A DNA stretch of 64,000 bases from Acidobacteria bacterium 13_2_20CM_2_57_6 (GTDB taxonomy: Bacteria > Acidobacteriota > Terriglobia > Acidiferrales > UBA7541). Each line of letters begins with the position of its first letter. Position 1 is the stretch's first letter. The translations under genes were made by a program, and so were the position numbers. Below the pieces are notes generated by a model. It did not search any database, had not been told where the DNA came from, and saw nothing but the letters and a program-made list of their open reading frames with translations. Shown here piece by piece: positions 1,059-32,420 of this stretch. The stretch is taken from assembly GCA_001917435.1 (NCBI GenBank), contig MNEA01000153.1, forward strand, positions 1 through 64,000, given 5' to 3'.

Positions 1059-1529
1059 CTAAGTCGAACTCATGTGCGACCCCGACCGGGCCGGGGCCGA
1101 CAACGCCACGAGCGCAGGCTCATGGGGCTCTTCGCTCATCTGTGAAATCGTGACGGTGCTCAATACATTCAAAATACTTTCATTCACCCTGCGCAGCGGC
1201 TCTTTGACGGAGCAGCGCTCTGTGGCGTCACAGTTCCCATGGTTCGTGACGCAGGAAGTAATCAGCACGGGGCCATCGATGGCAGAAATTACGTCGAGAG
1301 CGCTAATCTGCCCTGGCTCCTTGGCCAATTGGTAGCCCCCGCTGGAACCATGCTTTGCAACTACGAGTGAATGATGCGCCAGCTTTTGGAGCACCTTGGC
1401 CATCAGCGTCGCGGAGATGCCATATTCCTCAGCAATCTCATTGGCGCTGCAAGCATGTTGCTGGCGATGCATCGCCAAGTGCTTGACGGCAATCAGACCG
1501 TAATCGGCCTTTTTGGAAAGCTTGAACAT
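1059..1529 (-). CDS. Rrf2-family transcriptional regulator, IscR-like
   Basis: Winged-helix regulator of the Rrf2 family, 156 residues from the ATG at 1529. The start gives the canonical N-terminus [19 protein letters not shown]; the frame stays open upstream to 1643 but that extension has no family similarity. Recognition-helix region is [21 protein letters not shown]. Three cysteines at about residues 93, 100 and 106 (C-X6-C-X5-C) fit the [2Fe-2S]-ligand region of IscR/RsrR-type members, whose E. coli form has C-X5-C-X5-C. Position directly upstream of iscS supports sensing of Fe-S status and control of cysteine desulfurase. A strong sigma70-type promoter with an overlapping palindrome precedes it, suggesting autoregulation. 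The exact cofactor and target set are inferred. Confidence 0.9.
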
Positions 1530-1566
1530 CGTTCGATAGACCTTCTCGCTAAAAGGCTCCGGTATA

Positions 1567-1585
1567 TGCGACCGAATCAGTCGCA
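1567..1585. promoter_or_regulatory. Candidate operator palindrome at the regulator's start site
   Basis: Perfect inverted repeat TGCGAC-N7-GTCGCA lying just downstream of the -10 box and covering the expected transcription start. The position is right for repression by a dimeric regulator, most simply the adjacent Rrf2 protein. Assignment to that protein is inference. Confidence 0.55.
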
Positions 1586-1590
1586 AATGA

Positions 1591-1619
1591 AGTATATCCC
1601 TACATTCCCCGAAAGTCAA
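1591..1619 (-). promoter_or_regulatory. Sigma70-type promoter for the Rrf2 regulator-iscS unit
   Basis: On the minus strand TTGACT (1619-1614), a 17-base spacer and TATACT (1596-1591). Both hexamers differ from consensus by one base and the spacing is ideal. The transcript would begin near 1584, about 55 bases before the regulator's ATG. Confidence 0.8.
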
Positions 1620-1674
1620 CCAAGAGCAGTTCCTGATTCCCATACAAGCCCTGTATTTTTAACAACTTATACTA

Positions 1675-1689
1675 AGACTAGAATAGTCT
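1675..1689. repeat. Short perfect palindrome upstream of the phosphoesterase gene
   Basis: AGACTA-GAA-TAGTCT, a 15-base dyad in the AT-rich stretch between the divergent Rrf2 regulator and phosphoesterase genes. It could be a regulator site; nothing else identifies it. Confidence 0.35.
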
Positions 1690-1813
1690 CATATCCAGAG
1701 AATTTCAGCGAACGGTCTCCAGCTGCCTTGAATGGCCTGAAATCCAAGCTGAGCGGCGATTGCACAGTTTACAAGTCTGGCATGGTAGCCTACCCGTTCG
1801 ATGGAGGGGCTGG

Positions 1814-2818
1814 ATGGCCGGATACATTCGGATACGAGAAAAACTGGCAGGCCGGTGGGCTTGGGGTCCAATCCTGATAATTCTGCTCGTTCCGGCACAG
1901 ACCCTGGCGCAAGCGCAAACGGCTCCGCCAGGCAATCATCTGAAGAGCGCCAAAATCGGGTCGACAAAGAAGCACGCGGAGAAGACGTTTGTACTTTTGG
2001 GAGCGGGCGATATCGCCAGTTGCAAGAATCCGGAAGGCGCCCGGGCGACAGCCAAGCTGATCGAGCAAATTCCTGGCACGGTTTTTGCGGCAGGCGACCT
2101 GGCCTACGAAAGAGGCAGCGCCGAAGATTTCAAGAATTGTTATGAGCCGACCTGGGGACGCTTCAAAGACCGGACAAAACCAGCCCTGGGAAATCATGAG
2201 TATGGGAATCATACAGCGTCAGCCTATTTCCAATATTGGGGGGCGCGGGCGGGGCCAGTGGGCAAGGGCTACTATAGCTACGACCTGGGAAACTGGCACA
2301 TTGTGGTGCTGAATACGAATTGCGATGCGAAGGCCTTGGGAGGCTGCGCAGCCGGTTCACCGCAGGAGACGTGGCTGAAAGAGGATCTTGCAAAACACCC
2401 TGCAGCGTGCATTCTGGCATACGGCCATCATGCACTGTTCAGCAGCGGCGTGTTCAAGAGCCATGCCGTGCATCCTGAATTGAGGGAGCTATGGGAAGAC
2501 TTGTACGCTGCGCACGCCGACCTGGTTCTTGCGGGACACGAACACTCCTACGAACGATTCGCGCCGCAGGACCCCCAGGGCAAAGCCGATCCCGTAAATG
2601 GGATCCGGGAGATTGTCGTAGGAACTGGCGGCCGCAGCCACGATCTTCTCGGCTTCGCCACTCCGAACAGCGAAGCGCGTGACTGGGACACATTCGGCGT
2701 GCTGAAACTCACGCTGGCGCCTGGGAAGTACGCGTGGGAGTTTATCCCGGAAGAGGGGAAGACCTTTCATGACTCCGGCAGCGGCGTCTGCCACAACCAT
2801 TCCGCGGAATCAAATTGA
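1814..2818 (+). CDS. Secreted metallophosphoesterase (purple acid phosphatase-like)
   Basis: Calcineurin-like phosphoesterase, 334 residues from the ATG at 1814, which has GGAGGGG four bases upstream and directly begins a signal peptide (hydrophobic WGPILIILLVPAQTLAQA). The frame is open back to 1760. All metal-ligand blocks are present in order: GAGDIASC, AAGDLAYE, GNHEYGNH, AYGHHALF and LAGHEHSYER, which together make a dinuclear metal site. The substrate cannot be read from sequence; secreted members usually hydrolyse phosphomonoesters. The domain spans most of the mature protein and no C-terminal extra module is seen. It stands alone between the iscR-iscS unit and a convergent hexosaminidase gene. 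Confidence 0.88.
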   Translation: MAGYIRIREKLAGRWAWGPILIILLVPAQTLAQAQTAPPGNHLKSAKIGSTKKHAEKTFVLLGAGDIASCKNPEGARATAKLIEQIPGTVFAAGDLAYERGSAEDFKNCYEPTWGRFKDRTKPALGNHEYGNHTASAYFQYWGARAGPVGKGYYSYDLGNWHIVVLNTNCDAKALGGCAAGSPQETWLKEDLAKHPAACILAYGHHALFSSGVFKSHAVHPELRELWEDLYAAHADLVLAGHEHSYERFAPQDPQGKADPVNGIREIVVGTGGRSHDLLGFATPNSEARDWDTFGVLKLTLAPGKYAWEFIPEEGKTFHDSGSGVCHNHSAESN

Positions 2819-2846
2819 GCAGCTTCTGAGTCAGCGCAATTCACAC

Positions 2847-4937
2847 TTAAGACTTCGGGCTTGAGCAAGCACCGCCTGCGGAAGCGGCCTCGATGAGTTT
2901 CTGCACGGCCGGCGCGGGAATCATCAGCAACTGCGCTTTGGGCTTTTTCACCTGTTCCAGAAGCGCAAGCTGTTGCGCTTTCCACGCTTCGGGAGCTGGC
3001 TGCCCTTTTGCGATGGCGTCGAGCGCGGCGAGCCCCGCGGCGCCCAAGGCAGAGAGATCCTGGGAGTTGGCTGCAACTTCTTTGACCAGGAAAGAGCGCT
3101 GCGCGAGGGGCTGGAGGATGGCGCCATTGTCACGCCAAACGGTGAGTTGGGCACGCAGCCGGGCTTCAGCCGCTGCGTCATGGCAAGAGGATGCGACGAA
3201 TTGATCGACCAGCTCACCAAAACGCCGGCCCGCATCACTTTCGAGCGGAACTGCGTCCACGACGCGATTCATCGGTGTGGCGCTCGTCGGCTCAGCAGGT
3301 GCGGTTCGTTCGCGAGTGTAGTCCTTCACCGGTTCGACGACATCGGTGAGAGTACGGAGCGCGGCAAATTCCGCCGATGATGCGGATCCCGCAAGGCGCT
3401 GCAGCATGTGTCGCGAAACGGTCCGGTGGGTCAGCCCCAGCCACTCCAGCCGGGTGCTGACAAAATCCAGCCGCGCATACATGGAAGCGGGGTCGCGAAC
3501 TTCCTGTGGAGACCAAAGCCGCTCGGCAATCGCAGCGTTCCTGGGCCAGATGCGTGAGTCTACATTTTCTGGATTGACGTATTCGGCCCACATGCAAGAT
3601 TCACCGCCCAGAATTCGTTGCTGTTCCTCAGCGGAGAGATTTGCCGCATCGCCGCTCATCGGATCGACAGCATAATGCCGCGCCGCAGACCATCCCAAAT
3701 CCAGGTAGTATCCGTTCGACAAAATGCCGCGATAGCCTTGTTTCGCCGCTTGCGCGAGCGAAGCTTGCCCCCGCCACGACTGAATCACAATGTCTTTCGG
3801 CACGCCGGGCACGAGCACTTCGTCCCAGCCAATCACGACCTTTCCATGCTTCACCACCAACTTCTGGACCCGTCCGCTGAAATACGCCTGCAGTTCTTGG
3901 TTGTTCTTAATCCCCTGCGACTTCATGAAGGCCTGAATCTTCGGGTTAGCGTCCCACTCCTTGCCGTTCACCTCGTCGCCGCCAATGTGAAAATAGTGGT
4001 CGGGAAAAATTTTGCCCATCTCGCCGATGAATTCATCGAGAAATTTGTAGACCCTTTCGCTCGTCGGATCCATCGCCGGATCGAAGACTCCCCATCTCCG
4101 CTCGATTTCGTACGGCCCTTTTCCGCTGGCCAGCTCAGGGTGTCCAACGAACCACGCGGTGCTATGCCCCGGCATATCGAATTCTGGCACCACGCGAATT
4201 CCGCGGTCCCTGGCGTAGGCAATCAGGTCGCGGATTTCCTCCTGGGTGTAGTAAAGAGCGTCCGAGCCCAATTCCTGTAGCTTGGGAAATTTCCTGCTCT
4301 CAACGCGAAAGCCCTGGTTCTCCGAGAGATGCCAGTGGAAAACGTTCATCTTCACGGCTTCCATGCCGTCGAGATTCCGGCGGATGACATCGAGCGGAAT
4401 GAAGTGGCGAGCGGAATCTATCATCAAACCACGCCAAGGAAAGCGGGGCTTGTCCTGGATGGTGACTACCGGTGCGGCAAATCCATCAGGCGATACATCC
4501 ACGAGCTGCAGAAACGCCTGCAGCCCGTGCATCGTTCCCAGAGGCGTCGTGGCGCGGAGCCTGCCGCTCGCCGTGCTCACGTCAAGAATGTAGGATTCAT
4601 CTTCGCCGACCTCCTGAATTTCTTTGCTAGCGTGATCGGTCTGAATTACGAGTGTTGCTTTTGCCGTCTTGGAGGGCTTGAGTGCGAGCGGGAGACCGGT
4701 TTGACGCGCGAGTTGCCGCAAGAATCGCTCGCCAGCGCGCTCCAGCCGCGGCTCAGCGTATCCGGTGAACGCCACGGAGAACGTGGAATCCACCCGCAAG
4801 CTTCCTGCCCCGGACTGCACGTTCGCCGGAAGCGGCATGAGATTCAATGCAGGCTGTTGAGCTGTAGTCATCGCCGGGTGCAGCAAACTGCAAAGAACGA
4901 GTATGCCAAGTCCTTGCAACCGCGCATTCTGAGCCAT
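2847..4937 (-). CDS. Beta-N-acetylhexosaminidase, glycoside hydrolase family 20
   Basis: Exported enzyme that removes terminal GlcNAc or GalNAc residues, for example from chitin oligomers or glycoproteins. I start it at 4937 because MAQNARLQGLGILVLCSLLH begins a signal peptide and GGGAGG lies about 12 bases upstream; the frame is open to 5129 without plausible protein character. The N-terminal GH20b-like domain starts at NLMPLPANVQSG. The catalytic barrel carries the Asp-Glu pair in HIGGDEVNGKEW, with upstream WHLSENQGFR and PEFDMPGHSTAW as in GH20 enzymes. About 696 residues, a usual length with a helical C-terminal extension. Divergent from coaD, convergent with the phosphoesterase gene. 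Confidence 0.92.
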   Translation of the reverse strand: MAQNARLQGLGILVLCSLLHPAMTTAQQPALNLMPLPANVQSGAGSLRVDSTFSVAFTGYAEPRLERAGERFLRQLARQTGLPLALKPSKTAKATLVIQTDHASKEIQEVGEDESYILDVSTASGRLRATTPLGTMHGLQAFLQLVDVSPDGFAAPVVTIQDKPRFPWRGLMIDSARHFIPLDVIRRNLDGMEAVKMNVFHWHLSENQGFRVESRKFPKLQELGSDALYYTQEEIRDLIAYARDRGIRVVPEFDMPGHSTAWFVGHPELASGKGPYEIERRWGVFDPAMDPTSERVYKFLDEFIGEMGKIFPDHYFHIGGDEVNGKEWDANPKIQAFMKSQGIKNNQELQAYFSGRVQKLVVKHGKVVIGWDEVLVPGVPKDIVIQSWRGQASLAQAAKQGYRGILSNGYYLDLGWSAARHYAVDPMSGDAANLSAEEQQRILGGESCMWAEYVNPENVDSRIWPRNAAIAERLWSPQEVRDPASMYARLDFVSTRLEWLGLTHRTVSRHMLQRLAGSASSAEFAALRTLTDVVEPVKDYTRERTAPAEPTSATPMNRVVDAVPLESDAGRRFGELVDQFVASSCHDAAAEARLRAQLTVWRDNGAILQPLAQRSFLVKEVAANSQDLSALGAAGLAALDAIAKGQPAPEAWKAQQLALLEQVKKPKAQLLMIPAPAVQKLIEAASAGGACSSPKS

Positions 4938-30293: not shown

Positions 30294-31658
30294 TCACTGT
30301 TCGTCCTTCCTCTTTACTTCCGTACTCAAGCGGCCGCGGTGGAGCTGGATGGCGACGGTGTCGCCGAGTGCGACTTGGGCGGCGTCGCGGAGGAGGTTGC
30401 CGGTAGCGTCAGTGGCGATGGCGTAGCCGCGTTCCAAAACTTTCAAGGGACCGCGTTCCTGGAGTTGCAGCGCGAGGCGCTGCCAGCGCTCGCGCTTGGC
30501 GCGGTGGAGGCGTTCGATGCGGACGCCGAGATCGGCGGTGCGCTTTTCTAGACGCAAACGGAAGGTGGCGATCTTCACACGAAAATCAAACGAAGCGATG
30601 CGCAGGTATGCCGCAGTGTAGCGCTTGCGGGATTGCTCGAGGCGCGTGCGAAGGCCGAGCGCGAGGCGCGAAGTCATCTCATCGGCGCGCTGCCGCTGCT
30701 GGCGAAGCAGATCGAGCGGCCGGCGGAATCCGGGGCGCGCGGAAAGTTCGTGAATGCGGCGGCTGAGCACGAGAACGCGGTAGCGCATTTGCTCGGCAAG
30801 GGCGCCGCGCAGCTCGGCGATATGCTTGTCAAATTCGCGGCGCGTCTGAACCACAAGCTCGGCGGCGGCGGACGGAGTAGAAGCGCGGACATCGACAACA
30901 AAATCGGCGATGGTGAAATCCGTTTCGTGGCCGACGCCGGAGATGACGGGAATTTCCGAGGCGAAGATAGCGCGCGCCACGATTTCCTCGTTGAAGGACC
31001 ACAAATCTTCCATAGAGCCGCCGCCTCGCGCGAGGATGAGCACGTCGACGAGTTTCCCTTTATTGAAGAATTTCAGCGCCTTGACGATTTCTTCGGCAGC
31101 GCCCTCGCCCTGAACGCGCACGGGATACAGCATGAGGTGAACATTGGGAAAGCGCCGTGTGAGGATGCGCACGACGTCACGGACGGCAGCGCCTTTTGGC
31201 GAACTGACGATGCCGATGCGGCTGGGAAGAAGCGGCAACGGTTTTTTGCGTGAGGCATCGAAGAGGCCTTCGGCTTCGAGGCGTTTTTTCAATTGCTCGA
31301 AGGCGAGTTGCAGAGCACCCTGCCCTACGAGGTCGATTTTCTCGACGTAAATCTGATATTCGCCGCGCTGTTCGTAAACACTGATGCTGCCGCGCACGGT
31401 GATTTGCAAGCCGTCTTCGGGACGGAACTTGATGCCGCGCTGCTGCTGCTTGAAATAAACGCATTTCACTTGAGCGCGATCGTCTTTGAGCGTGAAGTAG
31501 ATGTGGCCGGACTGGGCTGCGCGGCAGTTGGAGATTTCGCCCTGCACACTGATGTCGGTAAAGTTTTTGGCGAGGAGGTCGCGGATCTTTCCGGTCAGCT
31601 CGCTGACGGTAAAGGTGTGGCGCGTGGGCATCAGGTTGAAAGTGAGTTGCTGGGTCAT
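30294..31658 (-). CDS. xseA: Exodeoxyribonuclease VII large subunit
   Basis: Catalytic subunit of the single-strand-specific exonuclease that works with XseB in repair and plasmid/phage DNA metabolism. 454 residues. OB-fold N-terminus FTVSELTGKIRDLLAKNFTD with VQGEISNC; the catalytic domain has GIVSSPKGAAVRDVVRIL, ILARGGGSMEDLWSFNEEIV and SGVGHETDFTIADFVVDVRA; a long coiled region and GPLKVLERGYAIATD close it. No xseB is seen adjacent. A very strong promoter sits about 440 bases upstream, leaving a long leader with hairpins. Confidence 0.95.
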   Translation of the reverse strand: MTQQLTFNLMPTRHTFTVSELTGKIRDLLAKNFTDISVQGEISNCRAAQSGHIYFTLKDDRAQVKCVYFKQQQRGIKFRPEDGLQITVRGSISVYEQRGEYQIYVEKIDLVGQGALQLAFEQLKKRLEAEGLFDASRKKPLPLLPSRIGIVSSPKGAAVRDVVRILTRRFPNVHLMLYPVRVQGEGAAEEIVKALKFFNKGKLVDVLILARGGGSMEDLWSFNEEIVARAIFASEIPVISGVGHETDFTIADFVVDVRASTPSAAAELVVQTRREFDKHIAELRGALAEQMRYRVLVLSRRIHELSARPGFRRPLDLLRQQRQRADEMTSRLALGLRTRLEQSRKRYTAAYLRIASFDFRVKIATFRLRLEKRTADLGVRIERLHRAKRERWQRLALQLQERGPLKVLERGYAIATDATGNLLRDAAQVALGDTVAIQLHRGRLSTEVKRKDEQ

Positions 31659-31679
31659 GAGGAGAGACCCCGAAAGGAC

Positions 31680-31703
31680 GAAGTAATGAAGTAAGGAAGT
31701 AAA
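31680..31703. repeat. Three copies of an 8-base repeat (GAAGTAAN)
   Basis: GAAGTAAT-GAAGTAAG-GAAGTAAA in tandem just upstream of xseA. Similar to the repeats at 13646-13679. Confidence 0.7.
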
Positions 31704-31740
31704 GATGCAAACACGCGGTCGACAAGCGATCGAAAGTCAA

Positions 31741-31768
31741 AAGTTGAAAGTTGAAAGTTGAAAGTTGA
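31741..31768. repeat. Four perfect copies of a 7-base repeat (AAGTTGA)
   Basis: AAGTTGA repeated four times without mismatch, preceded by the near copy AAGTCAA. Heptameric short tandem repeats of this type are known as intergenic simple repeats in several phyla. Copy number may vary by slippage. Confidence 0.85.
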
Positions 31769-31789
31769 GAGAGGGGAAAGGATGCCGTT

Positions 31790-32097
31790 GGTAGACAGGC
31801 GAAGGTACCCTCCTCCGCCCCCATCAATTTGCATGGGTATCAAAACAAAGGGATTACGAAAATTGCAATTCGTAAGTGCATGAAAGGAAAGGGGACGCAT
31901 TGATGTTGATGCGAGGGGAGCAGTGAGTTTCGCCCGCCTCGCATCATTCTTGAAACGATATGATTCGATGGGGGTTAGCGGGCAAGGGTCTGCAAACGAT
32001 GTGATTCCAAAAGAGTTAATGAAGCGTGGGAGTTTTCTGAGCGGACGAACTTCAGAAAACGGTTGGAAGGCGAGGCGAGTATGCGGCGTGAAATTCA
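31790..32097 (-). ncRNA. Candidate structured RNA or long xseA leader
   Basis: Region transcribed from the strong minus-strand promoter at 32104-32131, with no convincing coding sequence. It contains three separate perfect stems: 32032-32040 with 32052-32060 (9 bp, GTTTTCTGA/TCAGAAAAC), 31908-31916 with 31937-31945 (9 bp, GATGCGAGG/CCTCGCATC) and 31854-31860 with 31869-31875 (7 bp, TTACGAA/TTCGTAA). It does not show the conserved cores of RNase P RNA, tmRNA, 4.5S RNA or 6S RNA that I know. A minus-strand TTG-started frame (32098-31655) and a plus-strand frame (31923-32117) are open but have no ribosome site and no family character. Ends are estimates; it may simply be an untranslated leader of xseA. 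Confidence 0.4.
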
Positions 32098-32103
32098 AAA
32101 ACT

Positions 32104-32131
32104 ATTATAGCATATAGTCATTATTTGTCAA
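32104..32131 (-). promoter_or_regulatory. Near-consensus sigma70 promoter
   Basis: On the minus strand TTGACA (32131-32126), a 16-base spacer and TATAAT (32109-32104), both hexamers perfect. This is the best promoter match noticed in the window. It points toward the candidate RNA and xseA, with a start near 32097. Confidence 0.85.
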
Positions 32132-32243
32132 TAAATTACTGGTAAGTACTTTGAGCTGTATCAGATAGCGAGTCGCGCCGTCTGGTCATGTACCGAAGAA
32201 ACGGAACGGCGCGCGCGGCCCAAGCGCAGTAAGAGGCACTCAT

Positions 32244-32420
32244 CTAACCAGGCTTGGACCAATCGACGAGACGAAGGCGGGGACGGAGGGAGCGGAAGGA
32301 ACGATCACTGGTGACGAGAGTGAGGCCGGTAGCGAGCGCATGGGCAGCGACGAGCATGTCCATGGCCGCAAGGGGACGACCGTGCTTCCTAGAGGTAGCC
32401 CACCTGTGCCATCCATGCAT
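32244..32420 (-). pseudogene. C-terminal remnant of a VapC PIN-domain toxin
   Basis: The minus strand encodes MDMLVAAHALATGLTLVTSD then RSFRSLRPRLRLVDWSKPG and a stop at 32244. This matches the last third of VapC toxins, whose usual form is (D/M)DLLIAAHALxxGxTLVTxD with a final VEDW-like strand. The preceding residues KHGRPLAA also fit (usual G-x-P-I/L-G/A). Upstream of about 32400 the similarity ends and fpg begins at 32439. The catalytic N-terminal two-thirds (LDTxxLxxL and central Glu) are absent, so no toxin activity is expected. Too short to be an intact gene. Confidence 0.75.

Follow-up and report, generated by a model that had tools for sequence, protein, structure and literature searches.

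Dispersed repeats behind a predicted sigma-70 promoter in the xseA leader of a soil Acidobacteria genome

The xseA locus

We examined the region upstream of xseA in a 64-kb stretch of DNA (hereafter, the window). This DNA-repair gene lies downstream of a promoter and a long leader; upstream of the promoter are a truncated VapC PIN domain and a gene for formamidopyrimidine-DNA glycosylase. The features of the locus, all on the minus strand, are:

32104..32131, minus: predicted sigma-70 promoter TTGACAAATAATGACTATATGCTATAAT, 12/12 with spacer 16; orthologous promoters at xseA in nine relatives
31659..32097, minus: inferred xseA 5' leader, 439 nt; putative start near 32097, judged by the -10 box
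32032..32060, minus: stem 1, GTTTTCTGA / TCAGAAAAC; same in genomes G028 and G013, missing from the G024 and G027 leaders
31933..32019, minus: RepB, two direct units and a degenerate G-run
31907..31946, minus: stem 2, 10 bp, TGATGCGAGG / CCTCGCATCA; unconserved in G028 and G013
31816..31892, minus: RepA, model hit; the G-rich end extends to about 31806
31854..31875, minus: stem 3, 7 bp, TTACGAA / TTCGTAA, within RepA; no compensatory changes in 33 copies
31732..31771, minus: (CAACTTT)n simple repeat, dispersed in same-genus genomes too
31680..31710, minus: (TTACTTC[CA])n simple repeat shortly ahead of xseA, likewise dispersed in same-genus genomes
30294..31658, minus: xseA, exonuclease VII large subunit (PF02601, E 1e-102)

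The promoter comprises TTGACA (32131-32126), a 16-nt spacer and TATAAT (32109-32104) with an extended -10 TG, and is preceded by a conserved ACTTACCAGTAATTT (about 32132-32146). It is the single 12/12 TTGACA-16-TATAAT site in the 64-kb window, and 20 dinucleotide shuffles of the whole window yielded no 12/12 promoter and only 0.1 sites of 11/12 per shuffle, in agreement with the original prediction, which had singled out this near-consensus promoter as the best in the window. The promoter is retained upstream of xseA in ten genomes, with hexamers and spacing conserved among the orthologues, and on this comparison we take it to be a conserved sigma-70 promoter.

The truncated VapC (32244-32420, minus) retains only the C-terminal part of the PIN domain (profile 81-116 of 120, E 4e-6); the equivalent place in G013 (L122, about 294-1007) holds an apparently intact vapBC pair.

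A protein encoded in the leader was rejected. The leader is spanned by a 147-aa frame (31655-32098, minus) that would start at TTG 32098 and whose stop overlaps the xseA start, and in G028, where indels of 3 and 24 nt occur, it remains open throughout. Its substitutions, however, fall at codon positions 1/2/3 as 23/22/23, with no third-position excess, versus 5/3/33 in xseA. The frame has no Pfam match, and the pyrimidine-rich sense strand makes stop codons rare in the leader. Translation of this frame is extremely improbable, and the earlier statement that the leader has no convincing open frame was right in substance.

Two dispersed repeats and their superfamily

The region behind the promoter consists of two dispersed repeats, RepB then RepA, which are not specific to xseA. 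A nucleotide search with the region covered 61 genomes (36 of the same genus, 25 of other genera), and both of its inner segments matched many places in the same-genus genomes and in the window's own genome. Boundaries were set from aligned copies and counts were taken with sequence-only models. The own genome has 15 RepA and 14 RepB copies; of the 36 same-genus genomes, 28 contain RepA and 25 contain RepB, and neither was found in any of the 25 genomes of other genera. Among named genomes, the RepA pattern was matched exactly only in MAGs of soil Acidobacteria, the majority of them labelled gp2. By these counts the RepA/RepB family appears to be restricted to one group of soil subdivision-2 Acidobacteria.

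The copies appear old and diverged. The better own-genome matches to the window copy, whose RepB units are TAACTCTTTTGGAATCACATCGTTTGC (from 32018) and TAACCCCCATCGAATCATATCGTTTC (from 31977), share 74-89% identity over parts, short of the high identity that would imply recent propagation. Several copies are orthologously placed in G000, G013 and G028, indicating that the spread was not recent.

RepA and RepB are members of a larger modular superfamily, in which one to three units of the form TAA[C/G]YCCTTT-core-TTAC, about 41 nt apart, are followed by an A-tract and a G-run, and which reaches up to about 100 copies per genome. The superfamily model R3 matched 35/36 same-genus genomes, with 6 matches in one same-family genus and 0/24 in others; because about 100 candidates were scored per genome, the superfamily numbers are probably lower bounds. 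The pattern TCCTTTAGAAT..ACTTAC matched 53 times, always within the genus (15 genomes), and its reversed control gave no match; a stricter unit pattern was absent from 296 further genomes of the phylum. A second unit is present in 62/98 detected elements, mostly 38-43 nt or 68-71 nt upstream, the longer spacing being accounted for by an inverted unit between in the cases inspected. Cores match better within an element than between elements (mean 5.2 versus 3.9 of 11, permutation P 0.0002); for some pairs the unit frame was shifted by one, which lowers the within-element value.

The units of RepA and RepB are direct and unpalindromic; an inverted unit is found only in a three-unit branch, A6 (L113, L008, L218, L179, L004, L092, L208, L209, L217 and others). 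In this direct-inverted-direct arrangement pairing is strong, beating all 100 shuffles, with compensatory changes at 3 pairs, and the antisense strand is more stable than the sense strand.

In the xseA leaders of relatives the same promoter recurs, and in most species the element behind it is a different one built on the same grammar; the sequence of the element in this slot is not conserved between species. By profile, a superfamily member occupies the slot between promoter and gene in 9/10 xseA leaders with the promoter versus 4/20 without (P 0.0004, uncorrected for phylogeny), a tie that may reflect shared ancestry. In G013 an insertion of ~2.7 kb (L122 about 1298-4030, contig C94) splits RepB in the xseA leader. 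It has inverted ends GATTATTCACTT, the repeat GTTTCAAG on both sides, and one 309-aa frame resembling a transposase.

Promoters and pairing in the repeats

Sense-strand promoters of at least 10/12 lie 50-150 nt upstream of 31/85 RepA and 15/48 RepB copies, versus 0-1 at antisense positions; as the copies are themselves related, the counts establish an association but not a series of independent events. RepA promoters lie mostly about 101-106 nt upstream, and a second type, associated with RepB, lies 76-82 nt upstream in several unrelated loci (82 nt in the window copy). Similar promoters thus stand before several unrelated genes of a genome. In the own genome, a promoter scoring 10/12 or better lies within 300 nt of only 5/26 superfamily clusters.

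Among the RepA copies of G013 and G028, many are preceded by a TTGACT...TATACT-type promoter at about 101-106 nt and, closer to the repeat at about 50-60 nt, by a terminator-like hairpin. In this sister RepA class (about 30/92 copies; L098, L099, L104, L105, L114, L117-L120, L187-L202) the promoter is followed after about 30 nt by the intrinsic-terminator-like hairpin, whose stem varies with pairing kept (variants GCGGGAGC/GCTCCCGC, GCGGCAGC/GCTGCCGC and GCGGGGGC/GCCCCCGC). From its sequence, the class is possibly a family of short (about 50 nt) transcripts.

The window copy has no terminator-like site on the minus strand. The original prediction listed three perfect stems of 9, 9 and 7 bp; three with loops of at most 30 nt are present, but the second is of 10 bp (9 bp at 32032-32060, 10 bp at 31907-31946, 7 bp at 31854-31875). 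Three such stems arise in 1% of shuffles (P about 0.01) and two stems of at least 9 bp in 0.4%, and the fold of 31790-32097 beats shuffles (z -2.9). A stand-alone small or structured RNA driven by the promoter would be consistent with this fold, and with the pair-keeping hairpins of the sister class, but comparison of copies argues otherwise. Stems 2 and 3 are broken in the orthologues from G028 and G013; stem 1 is identical in all three genomes that have it, and is therefore silent on covariation. Among 33 copies of RepA, 0/7 pairs of stem 3 show changes on both sides, and the RepA consensus fold (RNAalifold) is no better than column shuffles (16/100). Pairing between the RepB C-run and G-run is weak by the same measure (2/100), with covariation at 0/8 pairs of the helix. 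Rfam covariance models gave no match in the window at gathering score and none in the region at E up to 5, nor did any family cover the repeats of related loci at gathering score, in line with the earlier remark that the region matches no familiar RNA family. Pair counts and column-shuffled RNAalifold thus leave a structured RNA unsupported for both repeats. The compensatory changes by which the original prediction proposed to judge its small RNA are missing, and we consider that reading very unlikely. The body of the repeat does not code for protein, nor does it form a covarying RNA fold.

Gene context, spread and the nature of the leader

The classified copies, placed against the predictions of a simple codon-usage gene finder, are all intergenic, with none inside a predicted gene. 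RepA shows no orientation preference (co-oriented with the downstream gene in 36/74, convergent downstream gene in 38/74). RepB is co-oriented in 22/29 (P 0.008) in a non-random sample, versus 15/26 (P 0.56) for the superfamily in the less biased sample from the own genome. At a locus read as ppa, one spacer holds RepB in the own genome and RepA in G013, ahead of a gene-proximal block that is conserved. The slot is likewise kept and the repeat type swapped (RepB versus RepA) beside orthologous genes at L065/L097, L067/L111/L211, L074/L104/L186 and L101/L164.

These observations bear on a cis-regulatory role for the xseA leader, in which the repeat would either be bound by a small RNA or a protein or act as a C-rich loading zone of the Rho type, conditioning read-through or translation. 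The filled slot in leaders with the promoter, the orientation bias of RepB and the base composition are consistent with such a role: the C/G ratio of the leader sense strand is 1.9, and xseA leaders are C-rich across relatives (1.3-2.0). The same repeats, however, lie beside unrelated genes in either orientation, often with a convergent downstream gene, and show no significant co-orientation in the own genome; at ppa the repeat sits away from the gene, and at xseA the element is unconserved in sequence. We judge a cis-regulatory leader unlikely. The earlier suggestion of a ~440-base regulatory leader of xseA is upheld in that a 440-nt leader is plausible, but compensatory changes that would mark a structured RNA regulator are missing.

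Mobility of the repeats is suggested by their copy number. No empty site, target duplication or transposase for the repeat was found: the spacers of the two locus pairs examined were unalignable across the element, orthologous spacers being too diverged to reveal an empty site, and no terminal inverted repeats or target duplication were recognised in aligned copies. Multi-copy intergenic repeats, with one branch that places an inverted unit between direct units and shows compensatory pairing, might suggest REP/REPIN-type elements mobilised by a RAYT (Y1) transposase. Yet RepA and RepB have direct, not palindromic, units, the own 82%-complete genome has no Y1_Tnp match despite 37 superfamily matches, and superfamily copy number is uncorrelated with Y1 count over 36 genomes (rho 0.09, P 0.59). 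We rejected mobilisation by RAYT on these Y1 counts, and it is scarcely credible here. Two further candidates were dropped by eye: anti-Shine-Dalgarno mimicry by CTCCTTT, the motif being CCCAT in many RepB copies, and integron attC sites, whose GTTRRRY partner was not seen.

We favour as the probable explanation a conserved xseA promoter followed by a non-autonomous, promoter-associated dispersed repeat (RepB, RepA) that fills most of the ~440-nt leader. Transcription from the sigma-70 promoter would begin at about 32097, cross the repeat within this leader and continue into xseA. The superfamily would have spread as a non-autonomous promoter-associated element, mobile-promoter or BIME/BOX-like, so the promoter may have come to the locus with an ancestral copy, after which the promoter would have been kept and the repeat part swapped. 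If the repeat affects xseA at all, the promoter and the long, C-rich leader would be the route, and not a specific RNA switch. The orientation bias of RepB counts against this explanation, as it is not required of a pure parasite. A bolder reading, possible but doubtful, is of an undescribed modular repeat system in which units with a shared scaffold and element-matched cores, coupled to an own promoter, serve as interchangeable leader regulatory cassettes, the one at xseA being exchanged between species behind a promoter that is kept; one branch of this proposed system has its own terminator-like hairpin.

Putative mobile promoters, for which PMC9208149 cites Matus-Garcia et al. 2012, form one such comparison. 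Mobile promoters are similar promoter-bearing sequences before unrelated genes of one genome. The repeats here have this in common with them, but the promoter is joined, at a set distance, to a distinct repeat of tandem units that ends in a G-run, and the copies are old and diverged, many without a facing downstream gene. MITEs are likewise short, non-coding and dispersed, but terminal inverted repeats and target duplication are unrecognised in our repeat. BOX elements of Streptococcus pneumoniae are modular dispersed intergenic repeats with a repeatable middle unit, found also between convergent genes and predicted to fold as a transcript (PMC3049150). They share with the present elements a dispersed, intergenic, modular build and variable unit number, and work alike with no homology implied; by inspection no sequence relation is evident, RepA and RepB have no covarying fold, and linked promoters and terminator-like hairpins are found on this side. 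REP, BIME and REPIN elements (PMC2817692, PMC3116915, PMC3733652) resemble the superfamily in their intergenic position, in a copy number of up to about 100 per genome and, in one branch here, in alternating unit orientation, but RepA and RepB are direct repeats without a palindrome, a GTAG/CGTC tag or any Y1 link found.

Dispersed intergenic modular repeats and mobile promoters are thus known kinds (PMC3049150, PMC2817692, PMC3116915, PMC9208149), and what seems new is the architecture of this repeat. A literature search of partial coverage found no such repeats described in Acidobacteriota, so the suspicion that the region held an undescribed element seems justified for the repeat family. 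Hairpin-rich leaders called from a single genome can, as here, be dispersed repeats, which calls for caution. The matched cores within each element are odd and directly testable, for a binding partner or a mobilising enzyme. Uncultured soil Acidobacteriota are abundant and their intergenic elements little known; a lineage-restricted superfamily numbering up to about 100 copies in a genome, many of which carry a promoter, would account for some of the turnover of their promoters and leaders.
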